NCBI GenBank assembly: GCA_023213315.1
Contig: JAKCPI010002806.1
Location: forward strand, 51,945 to 115,944
DNA from: Euborellia annulipes
Taxonomy: Eukaryota; Arthropoda; Insecta; Dermaptera; Anisolabididae
Length of the DNA stretch: 64,000 nt
Reading direction: 5' to 3'
Shown in pieces: positions 4,117-51,475 of this stretch; position 1 is the stretch's first letter; every line of letters starts with the position of its first letter. A program made the translations under genes and the position numbers. The notes below the pieces were generated by a model, which worked only from the letters and a program-made list of their open reading frames with translations, made no database searches and was not told the origin of the DNA.

Positions 4117-4647
4117 TTTCAACGTTAAAATCGAATTAAAGAGGAAAGGTCACATTTTAGGGAGAACTACTCTTGGACAAGATATTCTATTTCGCAACCG
4201 CTATTGTCTATATAAGATGTTATAAATGATCATATTTCACTCGTCGAGGTCATGTGCTCATTTGAAGGGATCAAACAACTCTTTTTCAATATTTTCACGT
4301 GGTATTTGACCAATTGGGACTTGGCAATTCGAATATTATGCAATCTATCTTTTTAATCGAATTTTTCTAAATAAGAAACAGGTATAATGAATCTGAGACA
4401 GTGTTTTTTTCAATAGTGCTGCACATATAGAGCAATAAAAAAAAAAACTGCTGTGTGTGCGCTGCTCCATTTTAAAAACTGTGTCTAAGGGTTTAAATTT
4501 TCCAAATTTCAAAGAAAAAATTTTTTAATTTAGTTATTTAATATATAATCTAAATAATTCACTAGTTAAAAAATTTTTAAAATTAAAATTATTTAATATT
4601 AATTAAAAGTAAACACTAGGTTTAATTTAAAAAAAGGAGTTTTATTT

Positions 4648-4689
4648 GGTTTATGTACATTTCGATGTTAAAATATCATCATCAGAACT
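4648..4689 (-). ncRNA. Hammerhead-like ribozyme motif (Rz-1, left arm)
   Basis: The minus strand reads GUU, CUGAUGA, one U, a helix II hairpin GAUAUU/AACAUC with one mismatch, GAAA, the mini-helix UG-UA-CA, UA, then AACC. Helix I is GUU/AAC. This matches the type I hammerhead plan with a minimal helix III. The extra U after CUGAUGA differs from the textbook core. Self-cleavage is inferred, not shown. Confidence 0.55.
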
Positions 4690-4779
4690 TTATTACAAAC
4701 TTTGTATGTAATAAGAACAGAACCAGAACCTTATTACAAACTTTTTATGTAAAAAGGTTTTGATGTTTGTATGTAATAA

Positions 4780-4818
4780 GGTTCCGATGATGTTTTAACA
4801 TCGAAATGTACATAAACC
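4780..4818 (+). ncRNA. Hammerhead-like ribozyme motif (Rz-1, right arm)
   Basis: GGUU, CCGAUGA (one change from CUGAUGA), a hairpin of U/A pairs, GAAA, UG-UA-CA, UA, AACC. Helix I GGUU/AACC is intact. This copy lacks three bases of the helix II side seen elsewhere and has a U to C change in the core, so it is probably inactive. Confidence 0.45.
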
Positions 4819-5755
4819 AAATAAAACTCCTTTTTTAAACTAAACCTAGTGTTTACTTTTAATTATAATATTCAATATTCAATTAAATTTTTCTGACCTT
4901 AGCACATCTTATTATTTATACTGATGGATCGAATAACCAACCCTGGATCTATAGCCTACCCAGGACTTATTTACACGAAATCAATGAACATTCAACACAT
5001 CCGCAAAGTGTCAATTGCTAAGTGCAAGGAAGAAAGCAGGCTAGAGATCCTGGGGGAAATCAAAAGTGTCCAATTTTTAATTTTCTAAAGGCTAGATGCT
5101 TCACTTTTAGTCTATTAGAAAATTTATCCGACAGATGGCAAATAATCGATGTAGTAAATGAGAACTAACTAAATTGATCCCTTCAAATGAGCACGTGACA
5201 TTTTTTTCACATATAATTAGCTATCGGAGTTATAAGGGAAGTTTTGTAAAGTTAACAACTTAATAAAGGCATTATTTTTAAAAATTATTAAAAAATAAAA
5301 TTTAATAGGAAGAGCTTTGTTTGAAAAAAAAAATGGAATTTTTTTTTAAATCTACATTTAAATACATTGCCAGTCAATATATCCTTTAAGTTAGCAAATT
5401 TGCGAGATGAATTTGTGTTAAAATTAAAATAATTAAAGCTAATCATTTTTTTAAAACAAAAATGTCCAAAAAAAATAAATAAACAAGGCTTGTGATCCTA
5501 ATTTCACCTTATACCGAACTTTGGATTTATCTGGGATCTTATATAATTATATGATTAGCTTAACTTGAACTGAAAAGACTCAAAAGTCTTAGTTAACTAG
5601 CAGAAAATTTTACAAAGGTTTTTTTTTATAATTATTAATTTCTCTTCGAATTATTTTTGCTTTTTTTAAATAATTACTCTAAATGTTATATATCATATGA
5701 TTAGCTTAACTTGACTCGAAAGTCATAGTCAACTAGCTTATAGTTAATTAGAACT

Positions 5756-6527
5756 AAAGAAAGCGGTTTTAATTAGTATTTCAATAAAAATAAAATTATT
5801 TATACAACTTTTAATCATTTTTGTTTATATTTTTTTATAACATTTCAATATAGACGTAATTCACGTTGAAAGTTCTGCTCTGATATTTTTAGTATATAAA
5901 AAGAATCGTGCAGCGACTATAACTCAATTTCTTTTCTCTAACTCGAACAACATACCCATACTCACTTATCATTTTAGTTAGTTCAATTACTAAACTTGGT
6001 CTTTACGATTTTCGATAAGCAAGCTTACAGGATGATCGTTAAAACAATTGTTTCCTTAATTTACTATCGGTAAAAGCAATTCAATTACATCTGGGTATTT
6101 GGTATTAATGTTAATGAAGAAAAAAATTGATACGTTTTTTATTACGCAATCATTAAATAAGAAAGAGAAAAAAAATTAATCACAATATTTTTAAAGATAG
6201 GACTATTTGAATCAAAATGAATTAGTCGATCTTGAAAATTTTTCATTGTTGAAAAAATCGGAAATTTAATAATATTAAAAAATTTCAGAAATTCATAAAA
6301 AATTTTTTTTTTCTTTAGATAAAAAATTAAAATATAATAATTTACTCTGGCTAAAAAACAAAAAAAACAAAAAAAAAAAAACAAAATGATTTATAAATAG
6401 GCCTACCCTAAAATAATCTTAAATTTTTCAAATTTAAAAAAAAAAATTTGTTGAACCCCCATCAAAAATTTCTGGCTACGCCTAATAGAGTATATTAGAT
6501 TTTTTAATAAAACAAAATTCACTCATA
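5756..6527. other. AT-rich DNA, nothing recognised
   Basis: Homopolymer-rich sequence. The short open frames (for example 6142-6384 on the minus strand) are F/K-rich translations of A/T runs and are not credible genes. Confidence 0.5.
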
Positions 6528-7115
6528 AAAAAATCTGGTCGTACAGCACACAACATTCTCTTGCCTCCGATAATTGAAAGTTTTGTTCTGTACTTTTCCC
6601 ACCAGATTATTTGAGTCGACATATATTTAGTTTATGCCAATACAGTATATTATTTGTAAAAAAAAAATATATATATATAAATTTTCAATCCTTTTTCATA
6701 TACTGTCGTGCTTTAATTTTAATATACAGCTTTTTTTTTTGCCCCAGTGTAAAATTCTTAAACAGTTTGTGTAACAGACTTCCTAAACTAGTTTATGTTT
6801 GAAGATAAAACGAGAATATACATTTTATAGAACATTTAAAAAATAAATGATGTAGAGTGGAAAAAAAAAAAAACTGAAAAAGTACATCAGTAAAGTACTG
6901 GTACTTTTTGGCCGAATTTGTTCAAAAGGGCCCAGGGGGATCTAATTTAAATATAAAATTTCTCTCGTATCTCACTTCCTTCTTGATTTAAATTTAGAAC
7001 AGACATTTTTTTATCTCAGGGGGGCCTCAAATCGTGTATTTCTATTAAAATCTCGATATGAATTCAATACTTTCTCTCTCCATATATATATATAGGTAAG
7101 AGAAGGTAAAAAAAT
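6528..7115 (-). repeat. Rep-A copy 2 (short variant, minus)
   Basis: An almost complete 590-bp copy. It has the AAATCTGGT hairpin end at 6528-6616, GTCGACATATATTTAGTTT, GAGAATATACATTTTA, TACATCAGTAAAGTACT at 6883, and a TTTCTCTCTCCATATATATATATAGGTAAGAGAA hairpin end split around 7070-7105. Together with 60052-60655 it shows the extent of the short form. Confidence 0.75.
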
Positions 7116-7766: not shown

Positions 7767-7778
7767 ATTTATAATGTA

Positions 7779-13624: not shown

Positions 13625-14456
13625 TTAATTGGTATATAGATGGTATAGTAGTCTGTCAGTTTTTCTTATTGTTTTGATATCTGTCAATAATAAAAAATAC
13701 CCCCGTTTCAATATTCGTACCAGAACATAGTTTTTCATCATTTTGAAAATGTCGAATTCCACCGGAAAATGTGGTTTTGCGGGGATCTTTAAGAACCTTC
13801 TTTCATTTGAAAAAAAGTGCTGCTGAAAGTCATCGTTTGTTGGTGGAAGCTTACGGTGACCATGCCCTGTCCGAAACACAGTGCAAGGAGTGGTTTCGAC
13901 GATTCAGAAGTGGTAATTTTGATTTGAGAAACGAAGGACGTGGAAGACCACCAAAAAAGTTTGAAGATGCCGAACTACAAGCATTGCTCGATGAGGATGA
14001 CACTCAAACTCAAAAACAACTTGCAGAACAATTAAATGTGACACAAGCATGCATGGGCGACCAGCATGGGTCACCAGACACGAAAAAGTGATTTTCCAAC
14101 ATGATAACGCCCCAGCACACAAATCAAAACCGGTCAGAGACACCATTGCCGCACTTCACTGGGATGTCTTACCCCACCCCCTACTCACCAGACTTGGCGC
14201 CTTCTGACTTCCACTTATTTGCTTCCATGGGACACGCGCTTGTGAACAGCACTTCGGTTCTTAGAAGAAGTCGAAAAATGGCTCGATGAATGGTTTGTTA
14301 AAAACTAAAAGCTTCTACTGGCAAGGCATACCAATTTAGAGAAAGATGGCAAAAATGTGTGGCAAGCGATGGCAAATACTTTGAATAAAATAAATTGTAC
14401 CATTTTCCAAGAATAAACTTTCAACTTAAAAAGGGCGGTTTGATATTTATACCTGG
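13625..14456 (+). mobile_element. Mariner element, internally deleted (mauritiana-like)
   Basis: The right end reads, inverted, CCAGGTATAAATATCAAACC and is followed by TA, resembling the CCAGGTGTA ends of mauritiana-group mariners. The left end (TTGGTATATAGATGG) is more degraded. The interior encodes both ends of a transposase but lacks the centre. Confidence 0.75.
13749..14388 (+). pseudogene. Mariner transposase pseudogene
   Basis: The N-terminal part is intact in one frame (13771-14040): HLKKSAAESHRLLVEAYGDH, then CKEWFRRFRSGNFDLRNEGR, then KKFEDAELQALLDEDDTQTQ and KQLAEQLNVTQ. This is the paired helix-turn-helix DNA-binding region. After a junction at about 14050, where some 150-200 residues including the first catalytic Asp are missing, it resumes in another frame with VIFQHDNAPAHKSK (second Asp), shifts again to PPYSPDLAPSDFHLFASMGH (third Asp), and ends ERWQKCVASDGKYFE-stop at 14386-14388. 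At least three frame changes make it dead. It would have been a DD34D enzyme of about 350 residues. Confidence 0.9.
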
Positions 14457-15548: not shown

Positions 15549-16184
15549 TATAAAAATTTATTTAATTTTTTAATCAACTAATGTTCTGAGACTTTATTAT
15601 TTTAAATAAACTACATATTTATTTAAAACGTGGACTTATAACTAAAATTCAGCAAAAAATACTTTTTTTTTTTTATATAAGAACCGAAATCCCTTAAAAA
15701 AGAATGACAACACCTCGACACTGTCAGAAGAATTTTCGACAGTGTTAAAGTACTGGGTGTTGTTGGGCGGTCGCGAATATAAATAATAAATATATGAAAA
15801 AAAATATTTTTTTAAAACCAATCTGGGATCCAAAATTGATTTACAGTTTTATGAAGCGTTTTTTTAATTCGTAAAATTTTCGTTCTTTTTTTATTTTTCA
15901 TCTATCAATATCACGTTTCGTCGTTTTCCGTCTATATATCGCCGTCGGCGAAATTTCCTTCGCTCCGCGGACTTGATTTCATCCTTAAAAAAAAAAAAGC
16001 TTATTTTAATGGCGATCGTATTTATAAAAATTAAAAACATGAATTAAATGACTTTATAATAATCAATATAAGATCATCATTATAATTAAATAATTAAATC
16101 ATGTTTTTTAATCTAAATAAAATAATTTAAAAAGCACCTTAGTTAACTTGACCCCTTACATTTCATAAGCAAAAAAAAAAAATA
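15549..16184. other. AT-rich DNA, nothing recognised
   Basis: Contains a small CGTTTCGTCGTTTTCCGTC / GCCGTCGGCG patch near 15915-15960 of unknown nature. Confidence 0.45.
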
Positions 16185-17430
16185 AAAAAGTCAATTGATT
16201 CAAAATAGGCTTTGTGTATTTTAAATGTTGACTGCTTGAAATAAAGTAAAGTATGGTTATTTTTTAAAATTTTAATCTCATATTTGATATGAGAATTCAT
16301 AAGAATTGGAATTTTTTTTTTTTAATGTCTAAAAAGTTCCAAAGGGGACCCTCTTTTGAATTGAAATTAACATGCAAATCCCCATAGGGATTTAACATTG
16401 GCTCTATGGAAGGAAAATTCTGAAAATGAATTTGAAAAATCTGAAATACTATTAAGAGTAAAGTGTGCTTCAAACAATTTTCACGAAAAATTTTATTGAT
16501 ATACTTTTTAAAGAGCGTCTAAAAAATATTTGATTTATGAATTTTGATCACGATGGTCACATTTTAAACACTGTTACCATGACAACCATTTCTCCTATCT
16601 TCTCTATTAATTTTAAGAGTAAAGTGTACTTCAAAAAATTTCTAGGGCAAAATGCGAATATACATTTTAAAGAGCGTGTAATAAATAATTGATTTATGAA
16701 TCGTTGGAGCAAATTTTGAGAAAATCGAAAAAAAAAAAAAAAAAAAAACTGAAAAAGTACATCAGTAAAGTAATAGTAAAAAGGTTATTTTCAAGGAGGG
16801 TGCCTAACTTAAATATAAAATTTCAACCTCATTTCCTTCATGCTCAAGTATGTCCTCACGGGCATTCAGACACACACGCAGATCAATTTACGGGACCCAC
16901 TTTTTTAGGCTCTGAGGACGTTAAAACATGTATTTCCATCAAAATTTCGACATCGAATTTTTGACATGATCGCAATATTCTATATATTTCATATATGAAC
17001 CTTGTTACGCATTAGTGTGTCAAGCGCCAGCTACAAAGTTTTGAGAAAATTAACTTCAAAGTTTTTTGTTTTCATTGGATTATATGGACCCTGTTACGCA
17101 TTAGTGTGTCAAACGCCAGCTACTGAGTTTTGAGAAAATTAACATTAAGTTTTTTTTTGTTTTAATTGGATTATATGGACCCTGTTACGCATTAGTGTGT
17201 CAAACGCCCGCTACCGAGATTTGAGAAAATTAACATTAAAGTTTTCTGTTTTCATTGGATTATATATAATTTTTTTTTGTCAATTGTTCAAGTAACATTA
17301 AATATAAATTTTTTTAGAACATATTTCATAAAAAATACTATTAATTATAGCATTTGAAACAATATTCCGTGCAATTTTTAATTTTTTGGCGCTTGACACA
17401 CTAATGCATAACATGGTCCATATAGGGTAA
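16185..17430 (-). repeat. Rep-A copy 3 (long variant, minus), with inserted array
   Basis: A long Rep-A copy (16185-16990), including the CCCATAGGGATTTAACATTG block and GAAAAAGTACATCAGTAAAG. Its terminal hairpin is split: one half ends TATATATTTCATATATG near 16995, and the other half, ATATAGGGTAAGAGAAAGT, appears at 17405-17425. The intervening 400 bp hold the 90-bp tandem array and an inverted partial unit. Confidence 0.75.
16999..17267 (+). repeat. Three-unit tandem repeat, period 89-91 bp
   Basis: GTTACGCATTAGTGTGTCAA starts at 17004, 17093 and 17184, followed each time by ACGCCAGCTAC-like sequence, TTTTGAGAAAATTAAC and TTTTCATTGGATTATATGG. An inverted fragment (GCTTGACACACTAATGCATA) lies at 17393-17412. 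The array sits inside the loop of a Rep-A terminal hairpin. Confidence 0.9.
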
Positions 17431-18377: not shown

Positions 18378-18647
18378 CAGTGGCGGATCCAGATGTGTTT
18401 CTCGGGGGGTGGGGTGGGGGGTTCCTGGAGTGACTGGTCGCACATCACACAATTTTTTCTTAATTTCAGTAATTTAAAGCCGCATTCTGTACTTGTTTGC
18501 CAGAATATAAATACAAATCAAATTTTTAAGTATTAATTTTTAAAATTTTACATTAAAAATACATTTTTTTCGAAAAAAAGTATTTTTTTCAATTCTCAGG
18601 GGTTAATTACCCCCCCTTTACCCCCCCCCCCCTTGTATCCGCCTTTG
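18378..18647. mobile_element. hAT-like non-autonomous element with 8-bp target duplication
   Basis: The left end is CAGTGGCGGATCCAGATG, and the right end, inverted, is CAAAGGCGGATACAAGG. CTTTATTT lies at 18370-18377 and again at 18648-18655, a perfect 8-bp duplication, the hallmark of hAT transposition. The interior has long G- and C-runs and a piece resembling the Rep-A TGTGAC hairpin. No ORF. Confidence 0.85.
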
Positions 18648-18655
18648 CTTTATTT

Positions 18656-18698
18656 AGGAACATTTCGGCTATGATCAACAAAGCCATCATCAGTCCTT
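18656..18698 (-). ncRNA. Hammerhead-like ribozyme motif, isolated
   Basis: The minus strand reads AGGA, CUGAUGA, U, helix II GGCU/AGCC with an 11-base loop, GAAA, UG, UU, CCU. Helix I is AGG/CCU and helix III is reduced to the single A-U pair. The core is intact. No partner arm was found in the neighbouring 100 bp. Activity is inferred from layout only. Confidence 0.55.
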
Positions 18699-18739
18699 CA
18701 AGAGTATAATTTATATTATTAACATACAAAATAGATATT

Positions 18740-19690
18740 GTCACAAGAGATATTTACTAATGTACTTTTTCAGTTTTTTTTTTCGATTTTCTCAAAATTC
18801 GCTTCAACTATTTTGTTTAAATAAATCAATTATTTTTTAGATGCTCTTTAAAATGTATATTCTCATTTTGCCCTTGAAATCTTTTGAAGCACCCTCTTGT
18901 ACAGTGAGGGACAATATTAAGTCCCACCCATGTGTTTTCTATTTGTGATTATTTCATTGCTTTTATAAAAAAAAATGAAAATTTTCTAGATTTGAACCAT
19001 TGAAGTTCCCATTAAAAAATATTTAATATTTTTTTAAAAACAATGAAATAATCACAAGTAGAAAACCCATGGGTGGGACTTAATATTGTCCCTCACTGTA
19101 CTTAATAGGAAAGATAGGAGAAATGGTTGCCATGGTAACAAAATATAAATCTTTGTCTTTTTAGATTAAAATTCATATAAATCAACTATTTTTTATATGC
19201 CCTTTAAAAAGTATATTTTTCGTGAAAATTGTTTGAAGTACACTTTACTGATGTAGTATTTCAGATTTTTCAAATTCACTTTCCGGCTCTTTCTTCCATA
19301 GAGCCAATGTTAAATCCCTATGGGGATTTGTATGTTAATTTCGATTCAAAAGGGGGTCCCCTTTGGACTTTTTAGACATTTAAAAAAAAATTCCAATTCT
19401 TATGAAATTTTGTATTTATTTAGGAATCTAAAAAATATCCAAATATGAGATTAAAATTTTAAAAAATATTTATTTCAAGCAGTCAACATTTAAAATACAC
19501 AGAGCCTATCGAAATTTTGAAACTTTTTTTTACTAATGAAATGCAAGTGGTCATTTTTGAAACTAAGGTGCTATGGGAAACTAAATATATCTCGACACAA
19601 AAAATCTGGGGTGACAAGCACGGTGCACAACTTTCTCTTACCGAGGGGTATGCTGTGCCCCAGATTAAAAAAAAATCTTTTAAAGAGTTA
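18740..19690 (+). repeat. Rep-A copy 4 (long variant, plus), hosting Mite-B
   Basis: It starts within the TGTACTTTTTCAG block and runs to the TCTGGGGTGACAAGCAC hairpin near 19605-19660. It includes CCCTATGGGGATTTGTATG and CATTTAAAATACACAGAGCC. Removing 18902-19098 and one TA restores CTCTTGTACTTAATAGGAAAG, matching the uninterrupted Rep-A at 56310, which proves the nesting. The 60-residue ORF at 19517 is Rep-A sequence. Confidence 0.8.
18902..19098. mobile_element. Mite-B copy 1 (TA-flanked palindrome)
   Basis: A 197-bp near-complete palindrome. Each end reads CAGTGAGGGACAATATTAAG inward, followed by TCCCACCCATG and TGATTATTTCATTG. TA is duplicated at 18900-18901 and 19099-19100. This is a Tc1/mariner-type MITE. 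Other copies are at 41699 and 49855. Confidence 0.95.
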
Positions 19691-21533: not shown

Positions 21534-22772
21534 AAATTATTAAACAAAAAAATATAATAATTTATTGTGACACCAGCAGGAAGATTTACTAGGAAATGTG
21601 AAAATAGTATATATGTTTTGTCACAGGTGTGACAATTTGACTTATTAGGGCCTCTTAGGCAACTTTGAAACCACATGCGACACGTTTTTGACACATTTCT
21701 TCTTTAACGAAAATGTTTATATTATATTTGTATTTATTTCAAATAAAATTACTATTTCCGGGGTATTGTCGGCATTATTAAGAAATTAAATTGAGTCAAT
21801 TGTCAAAAAAGACGGAAGAACGCGCACGGTCACATTTTTTAAAAACTATTAAACCATGACTAAATAGTAGGAGAAGAGGGGGGGGGCGAAGGCTACTAAG
21901 GATGATTCTCTTCTCCCATCGACCAAGAATTTGTTCCCCTATTCTTAATGTATTCTCTGTAAAAGGAAATGAATCATGAATTAAACACCTAGGGGAAACC
22001 TTTTTTTTATTTTATTCAAGTGCCCTGTGTCATTCTCTCGCCACCTGTCTTTAATTTTGATTCAAGTGCTACTTAATGATATTTCACATTCAAAGGATTT
22101 AATAGAAAAAAAAGCTATATTGTTTTCTTTTTCACTTTAAATTTAAAAACTTTTTTTTTTTTTTTTAAAGGAATTCGAGCATATGACAAAACAAAAATAA
22201 TTTCCCGTTTTTTTACGTTTTTCTCATACTATTGGTTTATAAAATATTTTGATTTGTTGATCGTATTGGGGGTTTGGGACATTCCACAAAAAAAAAAAAA
22301 AAAAATTAAAATTAAATTTCAAATTTAATTTGACTTTCATTTTATTTAGTATTTAGAAATCTTTTTTGTTTTTTATATTTAGATATAAATTTTACAATTT
22401 GTAGCATTTAATTATAAATCTTTTAATTCGATATATAAGAGCCGCCCCTTTGTTTAGTTGAGAGCCGCTCGATCCCAGGATTAATTCAACGGTGATAGGG
22501 ATTTATCTCTATACAATAGAGGGGTGAGATTGATAATTCAGTAACTTTATTCAGAAAAAGAAAATCATCGTTTTTGTTTTAATCAAAAAATGATAGAAAA
22601 TCTACTTTTAAAATTTTATATACTTTGCGTGAAATATTACATGAGTTGTAGGGTTTGAATGAATATATTGTACTACTATAAAAAATATGTTTAAATTATT
22701 AAAAAAAATTTCATTATGGTTCTCTAATATTGCAAAGAATACATAAATTTCTTTTCATTTCTCATATCTTAA
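21534..22772. other. AT-rich DNA, nothing recognised
   Basis: A/T runs and a G-run at 21879. A modestly GC-richer patch at 22440-22530 is unidentified. Confidence 0.5.
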
Positions 22773-23138
22773 GGTGCGCGTCTCAGGGTGCTAATTTTGG
22801 GAGACTCCAGCGGCCACAATTTTGAAGCTATCGACCTCAAATTTTTTTAAAATTAAAGCTATTTAAAATATCTACAACTTATAGAAGCCCTTTTTTTGAT
22901 TTTCGAAAAAATAATTTTTTTTTTTAGATTAATCGTATTAAATAAAAGATATTTTTAAAAAATTCGCTCTATAACTTATAGATAATTAAATTAGTAATCA
23001 TTGTGTTGAAAAATAATTAATTTTTTACCGTTAATTAATTAGCTGGAATCTTTCAAATGAAATGGAATAAATCCCTTGAAAAACTAACGCCATCTCTTGC
23101 CGCCTAGAGTAACTCGGTAGTGAATCGAGACGCGCACC
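22773..23138 (-). mobile_element. Mite-P copy 1 (TTAA-flanked)
   Basis: A 366-bp element with ends GGTGCGCGTCTC and GAGACGCGCACC and intact TTAA on both sides (22769-22772, 23139-23142). TTAA targeting is characteristic of the piggyBac superfamily. The interior (TGGCCGC, GATCTATAAC-like AT-rich body, GCGGCAAGAGATGGCGTTAG inverted) is shared with 27372 and 58164. No ORF. Confidence 0.9.
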
Positions 23139-24100: not shown

Positions 24101-24448
24101 ATTTTATAAATAGCTAAATTACAAATAAAACACGAGGTGATATGTTTCAATTTATTATTTATTGGTATAAACACTTTGTACTTATTTCGATAGTTGATAT
24201 AGAACTCAACTGGTTAATCAATAAAAATTATATTTATATAATCTAAAGAATTTACCTTGGGCTCTATTTTAAACATTTTTATAATTAAAATAACTTAAAA
24301 ATAATTAAAATTAAACACTAGGTTTGTTTAAAAAAAAAATATATTTATTTTTAGAAAGGTAAAAAGAGTAAAAAATCTTAATTTATGAGGAATTTAATTA
24401 AAATTAGAAAATTTTATATCAATATAATTTTTAAAATTAAATAATAAT

Positions 24449-24843
24449 TAAAAGTATACACTAGGTTTAGTTTAAAAAAGAGTTTTATTTGGTTTATGTA
24501 CATTTCGATGTTAAAACAACATCATCAGAACCTTTTTACAAAATTTGTATAATAAAGTTCTGATGTTTGTATGTAACAAGGTTTTGATGATGTTTTAACA
24601 TCGAAATGTACACACATACGTTACAGACAAATATACATACATACGTTACATACAATTGTACATACATTCGTTACATTCAAATATAACATACAAATGCTAC
24701 ATACGTTACATACAAACATCAGAACCTTATTTCTTACCAAGTTTGTAATAAGGTTCTGATGATGATGTTTTAACATCGAATTGTACATAAACCAAAGAAA
24801 ACTCCTTTGTAAAACTAAACCTAGTGTTTACTTTTAATTATTA
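24449..24843. repeat. Rz-1 palindromic element, copy 2
   Basis: Ends ACACTAGGTTTAG and AACCTAGTGTTTA. The left arm is at 24450-24540, the right arm at 24740-24843. The core is expanded with ACATACGTTACATACAAA-type short repeats (24610-24720) and an extra internal motif copy at 24580-24615. Confidence 0.75.
24752..24794 (+). ncRNA. Hammerhead-like ribozyme motif (best Rz-1 copy)
   Basis: GGUU, CUGAUGA, U, helix II GAUGUU-UU-AACAUC (six pairs), GAAU, UG-UA-CA, UA, AACC. Helix I GGUU/AACC and helix II are perfect. The only core change is the last A of GAAA to U, which would break the A15.1-U16.1 closing pair. The predicted cleavage point is between AUA and AACC. Confidence 0.6.
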
Positions 24844-25012
24844 TTAAATCATTTTAATTTTAGAAATTATATTGATATAAATTCTTATTTACCAATTTGT
24901 AAACTTCTCTAAGATATACTCAAAAGAAGAGATATTTTCTAATTTTAATTAAATTCGTCATAAATTAGGATTTTTTACTCTTTTTATCTTTCTAAAAATA
25001 AATATTCCATTT

Positions 25013-25915: not shown

Positions 25916-26144
25916 ACCATCATTTTATCAACAGATGAATGTCTTCTATGATTTTACAAATCCTAGGAAAGAAGGAAAAAAAAGACAAAAAAAAGGGAAG
26001 GAAGAATAAAAATCTTTTTAAGGTTGGAAAAGTATTTTTGTAAATATAGTGTAAGAAAAAAATTATTTGAAATTGGAATGAATTTATTTTAAAAGAATTT
26101 TTATAATAAATTTTATTTTTAATTAAATTATCATCTAATTATAG

Positions 26145-29174: not shown

Positions 29175-29176
29175 AT

Positions 29177-29224
29177 TACATTCTTGATGATGACAAGTAA
29201 TTGTCGAAATACGTATCAAGTGTT
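29177..29224 (+). ncRNA. Hammerhead-like ribozyme motif (Rz-3 right arm)
   Basis: CAUUC, UUGAUGA, U, GACAA-GUAA-UUGUC, GAAA, UA-CG-UA, UC, AAGUG. H17 is C. The first core base is changed (C to U) and helix I is partly disrupted, so it is a decayed partner of the left arm. Confidence 0.5.
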
Positions 29225-29262
29225 AATTTTTAATGAAACAAATAACCTAGTGTTTAATTTAA

Positions 29263-29930
29263 TTTTAATTTACAAAATGTTTCAACGAGAGCCTACGGTC
29301 GAAAGTTTAAATTTCTGTATTAATCGAAAAATCCATCTAATTGTTGGCTATTTTTAATATTTTTAAAGGTTCCAATTTAAGAGAAAAAAAAGAAATATTT
29401 ATTTAAATAAAAAAAAAAAATTCATTTCTTAAATAGGAAATATGGAATCATAACGGGTGTGGTTAATAAAATAAAGAACAAACATAAAAGGCAGATGTTT
29501 TTTTTTTTTAAACCTACAGTATTTGCGGCATTTCGACCATTATCAGAGCGAACGACTTCTCATTATGGTTTTAAAGAAAGAGAGAGGAGTTAACCATTTA
29601 TTTAAATGATCCTTCTGCTAATAATATATCTCTCTTTTCTCTGCCTGCCTGCCTTTGCCTTCTTGGATCGATTGCGATTTTTTTTTTCTGAGAATTCTGC
29701 GTTTTTGATGTACAGATTTTTTTTTTTTGTATACATTACAAAACATTTATTTCGAAAAGAAATTATTATAGATTTAAGTTTCAAGGAAAAAAAAAATGAA
29801 TGTAAATGGTGTTAAAATCGTGCCGGCTTAAGACAATCAGAGAGCTTACTTTAGACTATGGAGTCCATTTTGTTTAATTAAATTCTCATCTAATTATAGA
29901 TATAAATTAATTATAATTATATAATATATA
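29263..29930. other. AT-rich DNA, nothing recognised
   Basis: A weak ribozyme-like relic (CATTTCGACCATTATCAGAG) lies at 29530-29550. ORFs on both strands at 29602-29815 overlap each other and are T/K-rich. Confidence 0.5.
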
Positions 29931-29985
29931 TAATAATTAAAGAAATAAATTACACTAGGTTAAGTTTCAAAAAAATTTTATTTTT

Positions 29986-30023
29986 AGCCTATGCACATTC
30001 GACGTTAATACATCTTCAGAGCT
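29986..30023 (-). ncRNA. Hammerhead-like ribozyme motif (Rz-2, decayed)
   Basis: The minus strand has AGCU, CUGAAGA, a hairpin, ACGUCGAAU and GCAUAGGCU. It has lost an A of GAAA and is probably inactive. Confidence 0.4.
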
Positions 30024-30108
30024 AAGACACAAACTATTACATTATTTATTAATAACCAAATAATTGCGTATAATATAATATAATAAATAATGTAATAGTT
30101 TGTGTTAT

Positions 30109-30150
30109 AGCTCTAAAGATGATGTATTAAAGTCAAAATGCGCATAAGCT
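30109..30150 (+). ncRNA. Hammerhead-like ribozyme motif (Rz-2)
   Basis: AGCU, CUAAAGA, U, helix II GAUGU-AUUA-AAGUC, AAAA, UG-CG-CA, UA, AGCU. Helix I AGCU/AGCU is perfect and helix II has full length. Two G to A changes (CUGA to CUAA and GAAA to AAAA) hit the catalytic core, so this copy is dead but preserves the layout. Confidence 0.45.
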
Positions 30151-30367
30151 AAAAATAAACACATTTTGAAACTTAACCTAGTGTTATTTATTTATCTATA
30201 ATTAGATGAGAATTTAATTAAATAAGAATGTTTCAACTAGTGAATTCTTTGGGCTATTTTGTATTTGAGATACAAGCCATTCCATTTTTGGCAGATCATC
30301 GCTTCATACTCTTGATCATTGAAATTCTATTACTTTCTCTTACCTATATAGTAATATATTAATATAT

Positions 30368-30530
30368 AGAGAGTACAAATAAACTCAAGGTTATATATTT
30401 CAAATTAATTTATTTATCAAATAAAATAGCAATGACACTTCCGATGATGACATAAAAGTCGAAACGCGCTTAAAGTTAATTTGATAAATAAATTAATATG
30501 AAATATTCAACCTTGAGTTTATTTGTACCG
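30368..30530. repeat. Rz-4 palindromic element
   Basis: Perfect outer arms (TACAAATAAACTCAAGGTTA / AACCTTGAGTTTATTTGTAC) surround arms of TTAATTTATTTATCAAAT. It sits in the loop of a Rep-A terminal hairpin (30335-30367, CTTTCTCTTACCTATATAG). TA at each boundary suggests TA targeting. Confidence 0.8.
30436..30466 (+). ncRNA. Hammerhead-like ribozyme motif (Rz-4)
   Basis: CACUU, CCGAUGA, U, helix II GAC-AUAAAA-GUC, GAAA, CGCGC, UU, AAAGU. Helix I ACUU/AAGU can form. The core has one change (CUG to CCG). Confidence 0.45.
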
Positions 30531-39135: not shown

Positions 39136-39995
39136 AAAAAATACATATAAATATATATGTAAACATAAAATGATAATCATAAAAAAAATAGATCAAAATG
39201 AATGACTAGCGTCAAAACAAATAAATAATTTCCGCTTTTTAAGATTTATAATAACAAAATGAAAAATCTTTTATTGCAGTGTCTTAGCCAGTTGCATATG
39301 AACTGTATACGATCAAAACCGTTTTATAAAGACTTTATTTAATAAATGACATAGTTTATTCATGAACTCACAGAGAACACACATTAAAATGATCGCAATA
39401 CTTTCTCTCTATATATATTTCATATATAGGGTACGAGAAAGTAAAAATAATAATTTTTGAATTTTTTTTTCTAAAAAAATAATCAACCCCCTCACCCCCA
39501 CCCCTTCTCTCTTTCTCCAAAAGAATCAAATCCTGGCCTGAACATAGAGAAACTCTATTTATGGACCATTTACATTAAAAAAAAAAAACTTTTGGGTTCA
39601 CGAGTAAGTTTCCTCATTTATTAAGTATAATCATTTCAACTTCCCCATCTTCTAAACATTTATAAAGTAATGAAAATACTATTTTTTTCTAGTAATTTCC
39701 AAATAATTAAAAATAAAAAACCATACCCGAATTAAAAATTTAAATTTGATTCATTTATAATTAAGAAAAATCATCTAATTAAACCATTTGGATAAAATCA
39801 TCATATTAACCCTCATCTCTTATTAAGCTTTCTTTTAATGAATCTCATAATTGAGTAAATTCTCTTTAATACTAAAAACACTTAGCAAATTAAGGCTGTT
39901 TCTGTTTTTCTAAAAGAAAAAGACGAGACATGAATGTTTAATGGTAAATGTAGGAAAAAAAGAAACTTCATCTACGACCCAGCATTTAATTTTTA
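39136..39995. other. AT-rich DNA with a Rep-A end fragment
   Basis: 39389-39442 is the Rep-A terminal hairpin alone (ATGATCGCAATACTTTCTCT then TATAGGGTACGAGAAAGT). Nothing else recognised. Confidence 0.55.
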
Positions 39996-40418
39996 AACTA
40001 AAATAATTTCAATAGTTAAAAGTAAAGACTAGGTTTAGTTTAAAAAAATGAGTTTTATTTGGTTTATGTACATTTCTATGTTAAAACATCATCAGAACCT
40101 TATAAAAAACTGTATGTATTGATAATAAGGTTAGTATGATGATGTTTTAACATCTAAACCTTATTACAGGTTCAGATTATGATGTTTTAACATAGAAACA
40201 TTATTACAAACTGTAATACGGTTCTGATGATGATGTTTTAACATCGAAACCTTATTACAAACTGTAATACGGTTCTGCTGATGATGTTTTAACATCGAAA
40301 CCTTATTACAAACTGTAATACGGTTCTGATGATGATGTTTTTACATAAACCAAATAAAACTCCACCTTTTTTAAACTAAAGTAGTGTTTACTTTTAACTA
40401 TTGAAATTATTTTAATTT
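39996..40418. repeat. Rz-1 palindromic element, copy 3, with internal array
   Basis: Outer arms AATTTCAATAGTTAAAAGTA / TACTTTTAACTATTGAAATT. The left arm has a ribozyme-like motif on the minus strand (40061-40099; GGUU/AACC helix I intact, GAAA kept, helix II damaged). The right half is expanded into the tandem units at 40190-40345. Confidence 0.75.
40190..40345 (+). repeat. 51-bp tandem units carrying a partial ribozyme core
   Basis: Three near-identical 51-bp units have GGTTCTGATGA at 40220, 40271 and 40322 (the middle one with a CTGCTGA change), then a GATGTTTTAACATC hairpin and GAAACC. TTATTACAAACTGTAATACG, itself a hairpin, links them. Compared with other Rz-1 copies, TGTACATAA after GAAA is deleted, removing helix III and the predicted cleavage site. 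Confidence 0.8.
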
Positions 40419-41490
40419 AAAAATGTTTAAACTAGTGCCTACGGTGAATTCTTTAGATTATATATATAATTTTTATTTTTAATTTGTTCAATATATTTAT
40501 TTTTTTTTTTTTATTCAAACCCTTGATTAACCGACCTCTATGGGACCGGACATTAGGCCGGAAAAACGAATGGCTGGTTAATTTTTTTTTTTACAATTGC
40601 TCTATTTTTACCTTACCAAATACATTTCTTAATTATACATATGTATTTAAAAAGCCTGATAATCATTTACTAAAATTAAGATTCTTGTTATTAGAGTATA
40701 AATGTTCTTTTGGTTTTATGCATTAGATTAATGAAAAACCATTTCATTAAAAGTTAATGAATGTGTTCTCTAAAAAGAGATTAAATCTGAACAAAAAAAA
40801 AAAATTTGAATTGAGAAGGCTCTTTAAAATGAATCAAAGAATTAAATTTAAAAATCTTTTATAAGTTCCTCCATTTAATTACTCTGGTTTCAAAACTATT
40901 CGGTCTTCTTGGATCACAATACTTCTTTTTTTTTTCAATAGTGTCACATTTTTTTCTTTCTTGAAATTATTTTAGGAGTATCTTGGCTCTGGCTCTCTGT
41001 TCTGATTGTATCTCAGTGTAGACCCCGCCCTGTAGCCATCAAACAACGGATATCATCATTTTGGTTTTCTTCTCTTAGTTCTTTCTCGATAACAGAAAAA
41101 TCCTTCAAAGTTTTTATCTTCTTGAATGTTGAGAAAAGTTATCTATTTAAATGATGAATCAATCTGGATGTGGTGGTTACTTGAAAATACTTATCTATTT
41201 CAAAAGATGCTTACTTGATGACAGAGCTTGATAATATTACGCAGATGTGGCTCTAATATCCATGAATCACTGGAAAATATAAACGATTTGTCGTCGAAAA
41301 TGCAATTTATCTTTATTAATTTGGAACAAAATAACTAATTTTTTTACTTACTCATTTTTTTAAAATCCATATCGGTTTTTCACTGGCAAACTCAACTGGA
41401 ATGGGGCACTTAAAAGCCGCCAGAAAACATTTATTATATAAATTTTTAGTCTGGTAATCAATTATTCCTAATTGACTAGGAAAAGAAGTA
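40419..41490. other. AT-rich DNA, nothing recognised
   Basis: 1.1 kb with no supported feature. The 80-residue ORF at 40484 lies across a T-run. Confidence 0.5.
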
Positions 41491-41698
41491 CTTTCTCTTA
41501 CCTATATATGTAATACATGGAGAGAAAGTATTGCGATCATGTCAAAAATTCGATGTCGAGATTTTGATGGATATACATGTTTTGAGGTCCCCTGAAAAAA
41601 GTGGGTCTAACAAATTGGTCTATGTGTAATGATTTTAAGCATGAAGGAATTGAGGTACGGGATTGAAAATTTATATTTAAGTTAGGTACAGTGAGGGT

Positions 41699-41897
41699 CA
41701 ATATTAAGTCCCACCCATGCGTTTTCTACGTGTGATTATTTCATTGTTTTTAAAAAAATACTATATATTTTTTAATGGAAACTTTAATGGTTCAAACCTA
41801 GATAATATCCAATAAAGATTTTCATTTTCTTTTATAAAAACAATGAAATAATCACAAGTAGAAAACGCATGGATGGGACTTAATATTGTCCTTACTG
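41699..41897. mobile_element. Mite-B copy 2
   Basis: CAGTGAGGGTCAATATTAAG to the inverted right end, with TA at 41697-41698 and 41898-41899. Excision would restore GTTAGGTACACTCCTGGACA, close to AGATAGGTACCCTCCCGGAC in Rep-A at 57766, giving a second clean empty-site comparison. Confidence 0.95.
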
Positions 41898-42049
41898 TAC
41901 ACTCCTGGACACTTAAAATAAGCTTTTGAACAAAATCGGCTAAAAAGTCCTAGTACTTTACTGAAGTATTTTTTCGGTTTTATCGAATTTCTCAAAGTCG
42001 GCTCTAACGATTTTGATTAAAATTCAAAAATCAATTATTTTTTACATGC

Positions 42050-45670: not shown

Positions 45671-46599
45671 AAAAAAGGGGTATGACGCTAAAATAAATAC
45701 AAATTTAGGCTATATATATATATATATATATATTTACAAAGGGCGAAAAGTTATGTTAACCCCGTGTTTCCGACTTTTGACAAGAGGGAATTTTTAATTT
45801 ATTATACTTACCAGCATCTGTTAACTACTTGGAATTATTTTTATGTAACATTTAGTATCTCATTATCATTCATAATCACTTGTGTTTTTTATGATCATTT
45901 TTCACACAAACATTATTGTTATAATTAATATAAAAGTAATAGGATTGTTTTAGACGATTTTGTATCATAATAAATAATAGGTATAAATCACGGTTGTATG
46001 TGAATAATTGCCAAGTGCGTATACCAATACCAGAGTACATTTTATTGATTTCCAACACGATTATGGATATAAATCAAACGGCGGACACTTACATCCCCCT
46101 GCGGGCCGCCAGTGAATAAATGGAGTAAGTGTCAGCCAGGACTTAAGGCTCCATCCCAAATGCCGGCCCCCAATCGCTAGAAAAAGATCAAATATTTTTT
46201 TTTATTGCCTTTTTATGGATTTTTCCATTCAATTAAACACAACTGAATTCACTTTAAATCTTTACAAAAGCGAACAAAAAAAAAAAAAAAAACTGTATGA
46301 CATCTTACTTATATTTGTTTTTATTTATCAATTTTTTTTTTAGAGCCTTTTTTTACCAATAGTTAATTTTATTTTATTGAATCATATTTTAGACTCTTAA
46401 AGGTGTATTTTAACCTAAAAAGATTTTGAAAAAGCTCTGTTTAAGGGCCAGTTTCATTATTTCAGGAAAAGTAACATATTTAACCAAGTGCGTAATAGTA
46501 AACAAAAAGTTCTTTATAAAAAATTTTGTCCGGAAATTTTATATGTAAAATCAATGGTGAAAAAATATTTATTTAAATAAATTTCCATCTTATTGTAGA
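45671..46599. other. AT-rich DNA with one GC islet
   Basis: (TA)n at 45712-45732. 46078-46180 is GC-richer (CCCCCTGCGGGCCGCCAGTG, GCCGGCCCCCAATCGC), unidentified. Confidence 0.45.
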
Positions 46600-46765
46600 T
46601 AAATAACACTAGATTAAGTTTATAAAGGTTTTATTTTTAACTTATGCGCATTTCGACCTTAATACATTATCTTCAGAGCTATGTGTTAAGGTCGAAATGC
46701 GCATAAGTTAAAAATAAAACCTTTTAAAACTTAACCTAGTGTTATTTTTAATTATAATTAGATAA
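46600..46765. repeat. Rz-2 palindromic element, copy 3
   Basis: AACACTAGATTAAG / CTTAACCTAGTGTTA arms with a very short centre. The left arm holds the motif at 46638-46680; the right arm retains only GGTCGAAATGCGCATAAG. Confidence 0.75.
46638..46680 (-). ncRNA. Hammerhead-like ribozyme motif (Rz-2, decayed)
   Basis: The minus strand reads AGCU, CUGAAGA, a hairpin with altered bases, GGUC, GAAA, UG-CG-CA, UA, AGUU. The core and helix III are present. Helix II is disrupted relative to 30119 and helix I has one G-U pair or mismatch. Confidence 0.4.
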
Positions 46766-46914
46766 AAATTTAATTAATTTTAAGAATGTTTCAACTAGTG
46801 CCAATGGTGAATTCTTAAATATTTTATTGTTTGCAGATGGCCGTAAGGAAAATCAAATATTAATTATAAGGACTGTCGGACAAAAATAAATACTTTTGCG
46901 TATTATCCGTTTAT

Positions 46915-46960
46915 TTGTAAATATTTCGATTCCAGTGATATAGAATCATCTTCAGTACAA
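46915..46960 (-). ncRNA. Hammerhead-like ribozyme motif (Rz-5 left arm)
   Basis: The minus strand reads UUGUA, CUGAAGA, U, helix II GAUUC / GAAUC around a ten-base loop, GAAA, UA, UU, UACAA. Helix I UUGUA/UACAA and helix II are perfect. Helix III is the single A-U pair closing a two-base loop. All core bases are intact (position 7 is A). Confidence 0.6.
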
Positions 46961-47087
46961 TCAACAGATGTTTTGCAAAATCGTTACTTTCTTCTATGAA
47001 TTCAATTTTTATAATCCATTCATGGAATGCTCAGCTATTTTGTTATATTGGATGGGAGAAAGTAACGATTTGCAAAACATCTGTTGA

Positions 47088-47139
47088 TTGTACTGAAGAT
47101 GATTCCATATCACTGGGATCGAAATATTGATATTTACAA
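47088..47139 (+). ncRNA. Hammerhead-like ribozyme motif (Rz-5 right arm)
   Basis: UUGUA, CUGAAGA, U, GAUUC / GGAUC, GAAA, UA, UU, then an insertion GAUAU before UUACAA. The A to G change in helix II keeps pairing as U-G. The insertion separates the helix I partner. Confidence 0.5.
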
Positions 47140-47514
47140 ATAAACAGATAATACGCAGAAGTATTTATTTTTGGCCGACGGTCCTTATAATTAATATTTA
47201 AAATATTTTATTGTTTTAATAGATTTATTATGAACTGCGACTGTCAGCAAACAATTTCGATGGAGAAGTCCCAAAATATTCAGTTCTAAAATTAAACTAA
47301 AATATTGATACAAATATTGTATAATTTATTTAGGAAAAGAGCATATTTCCCACTTGACCATGTGTGATTAAACTAGCCCTTAATCGAGAAATTAGTAGTA
47401 AAATAGAAAATAGAGAAGTATAGAATATAGAAATAGAGTAGTATACATTAATGATGGCTTATAGTAGTTGCACAATTTCGTCCCTTTTTTTTGTTTTTAA
47501 CTTTTACCTATAAA

Positions 47515-48381: not shown

Positions 48382-48417
<36 letters not shown>

Positions 48418-48594: not shown

Positions 48595-48686
48595 CTCTAA
48601 AAACAGACGCTAAAATATGACATCATAAATTGGTTGTTAAAAAGTAAAGTAATAACACCAGCGTTAAAAAATACTATTCTCTAAAC

Positions 48687-49733: not shown

Positions 49734-49854
49734 CCGAATTTTCCCAAAGATGAGACCTAGGGCATTTTCATATTGGTGCTAGAAATAGTAGATATTTAAA
49801 ATTAAAAAAAAATCGTTAGAGCCGTTTTCGAGAACTGATGTGCTTACAAACGTA

Positions 49855-50062
49855 CAGTGAGGGACAATATTAAGTCCCACCCATGTGTTTTCTACTTGGG
49901 ATTATTTCATTGATTTTATAATAGAAAATGAAAATCTTTATTGGCAATTTTCTAGGTTTGAACCATGAAAGTTGCCATTAAAAAATATATCATTTTTTTA
50001 AAAACAATGAAATAATCACAAGTAGAAAACACATGGGTGGGACTTAATATTGTCCCTCACTG
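49855..50062. mobile_element. Mite-B copy 3
   Basis: 208 bp, CAGTGAGGGACAATATTAAG at both ends (inverted), TA at 49853-49854 and 50063-50064. Confidence 0.95.
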
Positions 50063-50191
50063 TACATTGCTCGTTTAATAGTACGATTAGTAGTCGTATA
50101 ATAGTCGTATTAGATTTGAAGCAAGGAGGTGTTAAAATGAATTAACGCTGATTTCAGATGTTAAAACATTTTTACTTAGGGAATAGACCTG

Positions 50192-50804
50192 ACTATGTGT
50201 TTAGAAGAAAATGTAAACGATTGAACAAACTAAACCAAACCAGATTTAAATAAATCCATCGTTGTTTATTTTCTCTTTAATTAAAAACACGAAATTAGTG
50301 TCGGTTTCAGTTTTGTTAAAAAAAAAAGACGTAAATGTAGAATAAGAGTCAATAAAGTTGTTTTTCTCCCTTAATTTTTCAGTATTGACTCTCTCTTTTG
50401 TTTCAATATTCGCCTAAAATGTTCTTCTTTAACTTGTTGGATTTCGTCAAAACTCAAATGACTCGTTATTAAAAATTTTATTTAATTTTTTTTTAATAAC
50501 CCTCAACTTCATTAATTTTTCTATTGATCCATAAAGAAGGCGTAATATATCCATTTTTTTTGTCTTATGGATTCATTAATAAATACTATATACTCTCTTG
50601 AAATGAAGAAATGATTCCTCTTATTTAATCATTAAAAAAATTAATAATAAAATCAAAAAGGGGAAAAAAAGAGGTCGATATTATTTTTTTATTATTCTTC
50701 TATCATACGTACTTTGTTATTTATTCCATTTCATATGAAACACCGTTTCAAAAAATAATAATAATAAAATATTCAACAAATTGGTTCACTTTAGACGCTC
50801 ATGA
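50192..50804. other. AT-rich DNA, nothing recognised
   Basis: No supported feature. Confidence 0.5.
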
Positions 50805-51090
50805 TATGAATGTTTAATAATTGTAATAATTTCATCGTTTCGACGATCCTTCATCAGAACCTTTTGAGAATTTATACAAAGGCATATTAATGAATACGAA
50901 AATATGAATGTAAATCATTTTATTTACTTCTTTCATCCCAAAAAAATTCATGTCGAAATTTTGAGATGTAAGAGTTAAATAAAACACAAATAACTTTGTT
51001 TACGTTCATATTTTAATATATTCATTAATATCCCTTTGTAAAAATTTTCAAAAGGTTCTGATGATTTGTCAAGCTAAAAAAATAAAATCT
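50805..51090. repeat. Palindromic element with ribozyme-like left motif
   Basis: Minus-strand 50830-50860 reads AAGGUU, CUGAUGA, A, a short GGAUCGUC hairpin, GAAACGAU. Arms with TTTTGAGAATTTATACAAAG / CTTTGTAAAAATTTTCAAAA and ATATGAATGTAAA / GTTCATATTTTAA flank a centre at 50940-50980. The right arm repeats GGTTCTGATGATTTG. The motif is partial: helix III and helix I are not clean. Confidence 0.55.
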
Positions 51091-51169
51091 CTGTTAATAA
51101 ATTATTGATTTTTTGTTGATTCCACTTTACGAATCAGTACTGAGTAAAGAAGCAACAAAATATCAGGAA

Positions 51170-51475
51170 TGAAAGAAGAAAACGCAGCCAGTCTTTAAAA
51201 AATATATTTTTAACAGCTGACGTTTCGGCGTTGGTTAAAGCCACCTTCGGAGCTAAAATCAACGAAACATTTTTCTTTTATAAATATAGTTTTACAATCA
51301 TTATTACAGAATGAAAATCATACCTGTTATCATTATATACATATATTTTGAATGGTATTTAGTATTGTCTTTTGATATAACATTAGAAAAAAAAATTGTA
51401 AAACCAAAGCCGAAACGTCAGCTGTTAAAAATATATTTTTTAAAGACTGGCTGCGTTTTCTTCTAAATTTCATCC
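51170..51475. repeat. Rz-6 palindromic element
   Basis: AGAAGAAAACGCAGCCAGTC at the left and its inverse GACTGGCTGCGTTTTCTTCT at the right. Next come TTTAAAAAATATATTTTTAA and CAGCTGACGTTTCGGC / GCCGAAACGTCAGCTG. The loop is AT-rich. The left arm holds a full-length ribozyme-like motif; the right arm only its 3' part. Confidence 0.85.
51215..51254 (-). ncRNA. Hammerhead-like ribozyme motif (Rz-6)
   Basis: The minus strand reads AGCU, CCGAAGG (two changes from CUGANGA), U, helix II GGC-loop-GCC, GAAA, CG, UC, AGCU. Helix I is AGCU/AGCU, helix III is the single A-U pair with a CG loop, and H17 is the preferred C. The GAAACGUC ending is as I recall it for Penelope-like element hammerheads. Confidence 0.5.

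Follow-up and report, generated by a model that had tools for sequence, protein, structure and literature searches.

Minimal type I hammerhead ribozymes of Penelope-like elements (PLEs) and Terminons were reportedly described by Cervera & de la Pena in 2014 and by Lunse et al. in 2017. The present analysis concerns a stretch of 64,000 nucleotides of the dermapteran Euborellia annulipes (assembly GCA_023213315.1, contig JAKCPI010002806.1, positions 51,945 to 115,944 of the forward strand; hereafter the window), which holds small palindromic repeats whose arms carry hammerhead-like motifs. Judged from sequence, it seems likely (with a probability of roughly 85%) that these repeats are non-autonomous PLE derivatives, i.e. 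inverted pairs of pseudo-long terminal repeats (pLTRs) that are devoid of the open reading frame (ORF) and rely on a PLE protein, acting in trans, for their copying.

According to the parts of two reviews that were covered, the hammerheads of PLEs and Terminons have a near-absent helix III, lie in the pLTRs and are proposed to cleave as dimers (PMC7761336, PMC6155905), and their role in PLEs is described as unknown (PMC7761336). The account of Adineta vaga, as far as it was covered, gives the Pen PLEs inverted as well as direct pLTRs, an optional one-sided tail of 31 bp and target-site duplications (TSDs) of 8-10 bp, in a head-to-head arrangement with palindromes at the junction; in a few cases other sequence was caught between solo pLTRs, and self-priming on antisense templates was proposed for the head-to-head arrangement of rotifer PLEs (PMC3846280). 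Poseidon PAc of Anolis, in the sections of PMC11167929 used here, is a GIY-YIG PLE, i.e. an autonomous tandem element with a hammerhead at the junction of pLTR and ORF. Its reverse transcription starts inside its RNA, which explains the tail, it prefers AT-rich sites, and it cuts and extends both target strands. Its hammerhead, called a protein-assisted ribozyme, cut only after addition of PAc protein, and insertion in vitro did not require it.

The window has an AT content of 72%, and its repeats are small (about 150-440 bp), non-coding and mostly made up of a head-to-head pair of inverted arms, the paired motifs having their 5' sides towards the element centre. In the minimal, type-I-like hammerhead of an arm, helix I is short and helix III very short, and a single nucleotide separates A9 from helix II; exceptions to the two-arm layout are family D, which has a single central motif, and motif G, which has no palindrome. 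No start-codon ORF of 120 amino acids occurs in the window (one stop-to-stop frame reaches 129), and neither reverse transcriptase (RT) nor GIY-YIG was found in the 10 of its 49 stop-to-stop frames (at least 75 amino acids) that were scanned, so that the window repeats are PLE derivatives at most, and not PLEs.

Family E, for which a genome-wide analysis of tail and TSD was made, has the following parts in the window:

46855-47199: palindrome of two arms plus a spacer of about 65 nt (self-alignment; multicopy in the genome)
46833-46854, minus strand: one-sided tail
46817-46832: left TSD of 16 bp, an exact repeat of 47201-47216
47201-47216: right TSD
46910-46964, minus strand: hammerhead of the tail-proximal arm (descriptor, covariance model), UUGUA-CUGAAGA-U-GAUUC..GAAUC-GAA-AUAU-U-UACAA
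47084-47144, plus strand: hammerhead of the tail-distal arm (descriptor, covariance model)

With 46833-47200 as the query, a search of the assembly (903 Mb, 25,949 contigs) returned 2,814 first-look candidates. Scores were computed for 40 of them, and 30 loci were taken, all aligned across most of the query at 84-89% identity in the better orientation. None of the 30 loci has the tail at both ends, and a tail score of 18, the random 99% level, is reached at exactly one end in 28 of them (L025 and L035 are weaker). Merging of shared flanks (flank score >90) reduced 26 sites to 23, the rows merged away being L012, L018, L027 (on the right flank alone), L029, L032, L034 and L038. A TSD score of at least 9 was obtained at 17 of these 23 sites, compared to 14 of 506 mismatched control pairings, and a score of at least 12 at 11 sites, compared to a single mismatched pairing. 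The duplications vary in length (about 9-18 bp, including one family B copy whose 9-bp TSD immediately adjoins arm and tail). The E copies share one central spacer, in either of two orientations, and at six of the 23 sites (L023, L024, L025, L028, L030, L033) it is reversed relative to the tail.

Within the E arms, the hammerhead core changes far less than its surroundings. At the 11 core positions 0 of 253 cells have changed in the tail-distal arm (134 of 2047 elsewhere in that arm) and 5 of 253, all in L022 and L035, in the tail-proximal arm (103 of 2047 elsewhere), although these cells are non-independent, the copies were picked by similarity, and constraint on a source PLE would look alike. 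The core is intact in both arms at 21 of the 23 sites. Conservation confined to one arm was considered and discarded, both arms being conserved.

A hammerhead core reads CUGANGA / GAAA / UH. A strict descriptor of it (helix I of at least 4 bp, CUGANGA, 0-1 nt, helix II of at least 3 bp, GAA, A15.1...U16.1, H17) has four perfect matches in the window (47093+, 46955-, 40095-, 29169-) and none in 20 dinucleotide shuffles; with one core mismatch tolerated there are 9 matches against a shuffle mean of 2.2 and maximum of 5 (6 shuffles), which is a small excess. When a looser score was applied with bulges of 0, 1, 2 or 3 nt, values of at least 34 were reached with a bulge of 1 alone (5 matches; shuffle mean 0.15), four of at least 36 being found with that bulge (shuffle mean 0.0). 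Other bulges gave about as many matches as the shuffles, or a few more, at scores of 26-30, and a bulge of 3 gave two matches of at least 30 (0.5 in shuffles). Genome-wide, the exact core pattern of families A and B occurs 105 times and its reversed control not at all, and a pattern scan of viral contigs gave 0 matches. The window together with the loci L001-L071 contains 90 perfect-core motifs in 296,386 bases, compared to 0-1 per shuffle (10 shuffles), a count that gives no density since these loci were chosen by searches and are partly overlapping or duplicate. The descriptor, bulge-score and perfect-core counts rule out chance or an AT-rich artefact. Further perfect-core helix I types in the loci are UCCA/UGGA, CUCA/UGAG, UGCA/UGCA, UGUC/GGCA and UGCC/GGCG. 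By eye, hammerhead-like motifs were also seen in flanks, at L069 7190-7270 (GGA-CUGAGGA-U-GGUUU..AAACC-GAA-ACGU-C-UCC) and L008 1270-1310, and it may therefore be that such motifs are very common in the assembly.

Covariation was assessed on families A, B and C, which are represented in the window as follows:

4569-4892: family A palindrome, copy A1, with the tail on the left at about 4541-4568
4641-4694, minus strand: A1 left-arm hammerhead motif (covariance model 71.7 bits, training member)
4775-4825, plus strand: A1 right-arm hammerhead motif with U4C and a 3-nt deletion (covariance model 60.5 bits)
24220-25005: nested family A elements, with the inner palindrome at 24427-24867 and a separate A end plus tail at 24220-24336
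24341-24412 and 24934-25005: outer arms enclosing a family A element, 72 bp and 96% complementary; they adjoin a second family A end, i.e. nested or rearranged palindromes
24484-24537, minus strand: A2 left-arm hammerhead motif (training member)
24747-24800, plus strand: A2 right-arm hammerhead motif (training member)
39989-40424: family A palindrome A3, tail on the right at about 40425-40460 (self-alignment)
40054-40104, minus strand: A3 left-arm hammerhead motif with a 3-nt deletion in the helix II region (descriptor, covariance model)
40169-40347, plus strand: 51-nt tandem array in A3 (TRF, partial covariance-model matches)
29910-30223: family B palindrome B1, tail on the right at about 30224-30248 (self-alignment)
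29979-30028, minus strand: B1 left-arm hammerhead motif with deletions (covariance model)
30104-30157, plus strand: B1 right-arm hammerhead motif with core mutations (training member)
26113-26352: family B palindrome B2, degraded
26183-26233, minus strand: B2 left-arm hammerhead motif with a helix II deletion (covariance model)
46573-46777: family B palindrome B3, hammerhead in the left arm, right arm truncated, tail on the right at about 46778-46816
46632-46685, minus strand: B3 left-arm hammerhead motif (covariance model)
29065-29272: family C palindrome, tail on the right at about 29273-29306 (self-alignment)
29125-29178, minus strand: family C hammerhead with perfect core (descriptor, training member), CACUU-CUGAUGA-U-GACAA..UUGUC-GAA-AUACGUAU-U-AAGUG
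29175-29228, plus strand: family C right-arm hammerhead motif with C3U (looser score, covariance model)

In a set of 12 A, B and C motifs from window and genome (both arms being used from two elements), 90.9% of the cells are paired, compared to 22-37% in slid controls, 17 cells have changed on both sides, compared to a shuffle mean of 6.2, and the covariation score is 0.382, compared to 0.181; none of 500 shuffles reaches any of the three values. Two further measures are weaker, as two-sided change in 6 of 11 pairs is attained by 29 of the 500 shuffles and the 8 further pair types by 341. Because the helix pairing sits inside one arm, palindrome symmetry is not its source. The hammerhead layout with covarying helices I and II that a first-pass annotation of this DNA had proposed is thus confirmed, including compensatory change beyond palindrome symmetry, the absence of which it had named as fatal to the ribozyme reading. 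Its description of the repeats as unrelated is only partly right, since A, B and C share AACCTAGTGT outside the hammerhead (16 window matches with at most one mismatch, 2.3 expected) and have a similar tail, the end of which varies in A and B. The centres of A and B are variable as well.

The remaining families and motifs of the window are:

30373-30528: family D palindrome with one central hammerhead (self-alignment)
30432-30482, plus strand: family D hammerhead motif with U4C (covariance model not trained on D), ACUU-CCGAUGA-U-GAC..GUC-GAA-ACGCGCUU-A-AAGU
51163-51481: family F palindrome, right tail at about 51482-51516, multicopy (self-alignment)
51153-51162 and 51517-51526: candidate TSD of family F, its score being matched by about 5% of random pairs
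51207-51262, minus strand: hammerhead-like motif of family F, in this copy with U4C and an altered A9
18649-18701, minus strand: motif G, CUGAUGA-U-GGCU..AGCC-GAAA
28378-28481: palindrome with AACCTAGTGT on both arms (1 mismatch in one) and no hammerhead

A covariance model built from the 12-motif alignment, with families D and E held out, finds D (E-value 5.5e-7) and both E arms (3.5e-5 and 7.4e-5); it does not find F or G. A type I core with covarying helices I and II is present, in the U4C variant in D and F. The genome search for family F gave 1,882 candidates, 40 of which were scored, and matched several contigs side by side in both orientations. Eight of ten F loci fit the regular expression, and of 14 motifs whose core could be read, 13 have C at position 4; one locus (L076) also has an intact CUGAAGA motif, with GGUUC/GAACC as helix II in place of GGC/GCC. 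Motif G had been counted among the palindromic elements (at 18656), which does not hold, as there is no partner at 18500-18800 and no clean cleavage site. No clear hammerhead was accepted in two other palindromes, H (50851-51064) and I (28508-28808), in which no consistent helix II could be discerned by eye; H has a weak covariance-model match at 51049-51088+ (E-value 0.0046). Among 14 window elements tested for a TSD the result is clear only for family E, the scores of B3 and F being matched by about 5% of random pairs.

Textbook hammerheads have no unpaired nucleotide between A9 and pair 10.1-11.1. Here, in 63 of the 65 distinct perfect-core motifs of the window and the search-selected loci L001-L071, exactly one nucleotide stands at this position (0-2 nt allowed, inserts of 3 nt or more not being permitted), with 0 nt in one of the remaining motifs and 2 nt in the other. 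The inserted base is mostly U across types, and A in two PLE families. It is for this extra nucleotide that the motifs are called hammerhead-like. The earlier caveat that it departs from the textbook core holds, whereas decay as its cause does not, because the insertion is systematic. In most types the A15.1-U16.1 segment is self-complementary (AUAU, AUGUACAU, AUGCGCAU, AUACGUAU, ACGU), as would be expected for ribozymes that pair as dimers (compare Aedes, PMC3088659); in the CUCA type a 3-bp hairpin takes its place.

RNA folding predicts that the same sequence behaves differently alone and in its palindrome. Twelve strands of six elements were taken as input, of which the eight that fit the motif expression were folded. 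In the isolated arm the predicted values are 0.77-0.91 for helix I and 0.97-1.00 for helix II, and in the full palindromes (8 motifs, 5 elements) both are 0.000. In a full palindromic transcript the hammerhead should therefore pair with its own complement and be masked, hairpin and ribozyme being mutually exclusive in this equilibrium model without tertiary contacts.

The same genome contains PLEs with the same kind of hammerhead. A search for GIY-YIG (PF01541) gave at least 118 matches (150 of 710 candidates scored), and of 12 neighbouring pairs on the same contig nine point outward, two are tandem and one points inward. In 14 of 30 GIY-YIG loci a perfect-core hammerhead with the 1-nt insert follows 430-535 nt downstream on the same strand, a count that comprises two PLE families and in which some loci are halves of one pair; L040-L042 (weak motifs with a 3-bp helix II), L051 (one motif on the strand opposite to GIY-YIG, one upstream) and L061/L062 (E motifs) were left out of it. 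In the latter two, family E copies (L061 196-485, L062 165-492) lie about 1 kb from decayed GIY-YIG matches. An ORF with RT and GIY-YIG is present in L070 and L071. The order in L071 is hammerhead, ORF of 852 amino acids (RVT_1 and GIY-YIG), hammerhead, in direct orientation, i.e. pLTR-ORF-pLTR. L069 is a PLE palindrome of 6.46 kb, with head-to-head arms of about 3.2 kb that are 99.3% identical; hammerheads lie at its two outer ends and close to the centre. One of its strands has an ORF of 825 amino acids and the other a split counterpart; GIY-YIG was not reported for the 825-residue ORF by the Pfam scan, yet the genome search matched it at 31.3 bits, and the Pfam scan does show the domain in a frame of 146 amino acids on the other strand. 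At one end only, L069 has 70 extra nt, continuing from the pLTR towards the ORF start. In L070, a small palindrome of the same pLTR (83% identity over 89 nt) adjoins a head-to-head PLE pair that has a hammerhead at either end. Both hammerhead copies of the small palindrome appear broken, and part of its outer end recurs inverted beyond the PLE pair; such a combination was seen in L070 only.

Features typical of PLEs are therefore found at several levels: a hammerhead in the pLTR (L071 and the 14 loci), a head-to-head or inverted pLTR arrangement, and a one-sided tail with a short, variable TSD (family E and one B copy; in L069 the tail only). Together with the layout and head-to-head pairing shared with the PLEs of the genome, this supports the proposal of the first-pass annotation that the repeats are ribozyme-bearing, non-autonomous retroelements, possibly PLE-derived. 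It had also suggested looking for PLE RT and GIY-YIG beside full-length relatives; PLEs with the same hammerhead layout exist, and no parent of a window family was found among the 30 loci.

In the best supported mechanism, a PLE protein would copy the elements in trans from a point within the tail. An inverted pLTR pair would lose the ORF between its arms, and the transcript of the palindromic copy would then be reverse-transcribed at an AT-rich cut site from a start inside the tail, so that the insertion would have a tail on one side and a symmetric arm end on the opposite side, together with a TSD. The palindrome itself would probably arise from cDNA primed on both target strands, with the cDNA 3' ends meeting, or from fold-back self-priming. 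Two-strand priming would yield head-to-head insertions with the RNA 3' ends outermost; the data do not choose between the two routes. RNA in which one arm is free would be the substrate of the hammerhead, which may act as a dimer or be assisted by a PLE protein. Since the Anolis hammerhead cut only with protein added, failure of the RNA to cleave by itself would not settle the matter here. Family E, given its shared centre, is likely to be copied as a palindromic unit; for A and B, given their variable centres, this is doubtful.

Several observations weigh against derivation from PLEs by copying in trans. Among the 30 GIY-YIG loci, no autonomous PLE turned up whose hammerhead or tail is that of a window family, so that a PLE parent of families A-F is putative. 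Rfam reports no hammerhead in the window at gathering score or at an E-value of up to 5, the nucleotide beside A9 could slow or stop catalysis, families D and F have the U4C change in the core, and numerous copies in the window are damaged. The genome-wide evidence from tail and TSD is that of family E, in which six of the 23 sites have no TSD at a score of at least 9. The E copies are moreover the best of 2,814 candidates (40 scored), which biases their completeness and intactness upward. Finally, simple copying of one RNA does not explain the reversed E centres, which need arm-arm recombination, template switching or use of both strands.

It is possible, if somewhat unlikely, that each palindrome is insertion debris, i.e. 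an independent, twin-primed, inverted-pLTR insertion of an autonomous PLE and not a palindrome that was itself copied. The PLEs of the genome often form outward pairs, inverted pLTRs are usual in PLEs according to the parts of PMC3846280 covered, and families A and B have variable centres. In addition, the E arms are slightly more alike within an element (identity 0.927) than between elements (0.892-0.920), although these values do not settle whether the palindromes are inherited or remade. The E copies, however, share one spacer and align over most of the query at the identities given above, which suggests that a palindromic master has been propagated in this family.

A less probable reading is that the motifs are fossils of which no copy cleaves, the layout being kept simply because the arms descend from PLE pLTRs. 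The extra core nucleotide, U4C in D and F, and the predicted folding of full transcripts into a hairpin that excludes the hammerhead are all in line with it. In family E, by contrast, the core positions of both arms are far more conserved than the remainder of these arms, which speaks against this reading, even if this constraint could still reflect the source PLE and not the small elements. Similarly improbable is a reading in which the palindrome would be a functional device: in the manner of a viroid of two polarities, both strands would encode the same RNA arms and one hammerhead per strand, the full-length hairpin would disarm the hammerhead and survive as a template for RT, and single-arm transcripts would cut themselves. 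If that were true, selection would preserve the core of either arm, and the centre would be reversible because both strands are used.

That the repeats are derivatives of DNA transposons resembling miniature inverted-repeat transposable elements (MITEs), i.e. terminal inverted repeats moved by a transposase with an incidental or hitch-hiking resemblance to hammerheads, is very improbable. They are indeed short, non-coding, palindromic, multi-copy and inserted at AT-rich sites, and the window has other palindromes without hammerheads, but the equivalent termini and fixed-length TSD of a MITE are at odds with the one-sided tail and variable TSD of family E, the covarying core is under constraint, and the GIY-YIG retroelements of the genome share the hammerhead layout and the head-to-head pairing. 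A retrozyme identity, favoured by size, the type-I-like motif and the 51-nt tandem array, is just as remote and unsupported for the palindromes, as retrozymes consist of direct tandem repeats, every one with a type I hammerhead, and have circular RNAs (PMC7229834, PMC7761336, as far as covered), whereas the arms here are inverted and the units at 40169-40347, which keep CUGANGA-helix II-GAA and form two hairpins each, have lost helix III and the cleavage site.

Other features of the window stand apart from the hammerhead elements. A probable SUEL-lectin exon at 63346-63642 (26.3 bits, under the curated cut-off of 31.4) and a mariner transposase relic (HTH_48) at 13747-14088 identify the window as animal DNA, which is perhaps intronic. 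A palindromic family of about 200 bp without hammerheads occurs at 18898-19101, 41686-41901 and 49849-50068; according to the alignment, the first copy appears to be inserted into a larger repeat (241-974, 16133-16977, 60064-60658 and others), so that an empty site would be at hand. An interspersed repeat of about 370 bp (22769-23127, 27368-27742, 58160-58564) is 88-94% identical between copies, and no link between these copies and the hammerhead elements was seen.

Compared with the systems described so far, the derivatives proposed here resemble the Pen families of Adineta vaga, which, in the parts of PMC3846280 covered, also have inverted pLTRs, an optional one-sided tail, short TSDs and a head-to-head arrangement. 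They differ from these in being ORF-less and, in many copies, essentially two inverted pLTR-like arms; by a term count, the word 'hammerhead' is absent from the main text of that paper. The type I order and near-absent helix III are those of PLE and Terminon hammerheads, whereas the near-universal nucleotide between A9 and helix II and the presence of motifs on both strands of a palindrome set the window elements apart from these, as the reviews, in the parts covered, describe them. Unlike the autonomous, tandem PAc of Anolis (in the sections of PMC11167929 used), they are ORF-less inverted pairs. Metazoan non-LTR retrozymes are likewise small and non-autonomous with type I hammerheads, but are tandem repeats with circular RNAs and not inverted arms (PMC7229834, in part). 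The repeat-type hammerheads of Aedes aegypti have a palindromic stem III suited to dimers, like the helix III segment here; a palindromic element structure is not described for them in PMC3088659 as far as covered. In the literature surveyed, with Cervera 2014 and Lunse 2017 represented through reviews only, no account was found of PLE palindromes that lack an ORF, occur in many copies and carry a hammerhead on each strand.

PLE hammerheads, inverted pLTRs, tails and TSDs are thus already known. What is new here are ORF-less, multi-copy palindromes that keep the hammerhead core intact in both arms, at nearly all E sites, and yet are predicted to bury it in the full-length transcript. Such core-keeping palindromes would allow a direct test of whether masking protects the template, and with two arms, a tail and no ORF they form a minimal substrate for finding what a PLE protein needs. 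Some repeats that are now annotated as MITEs could likewise be derivatives of PLEs.

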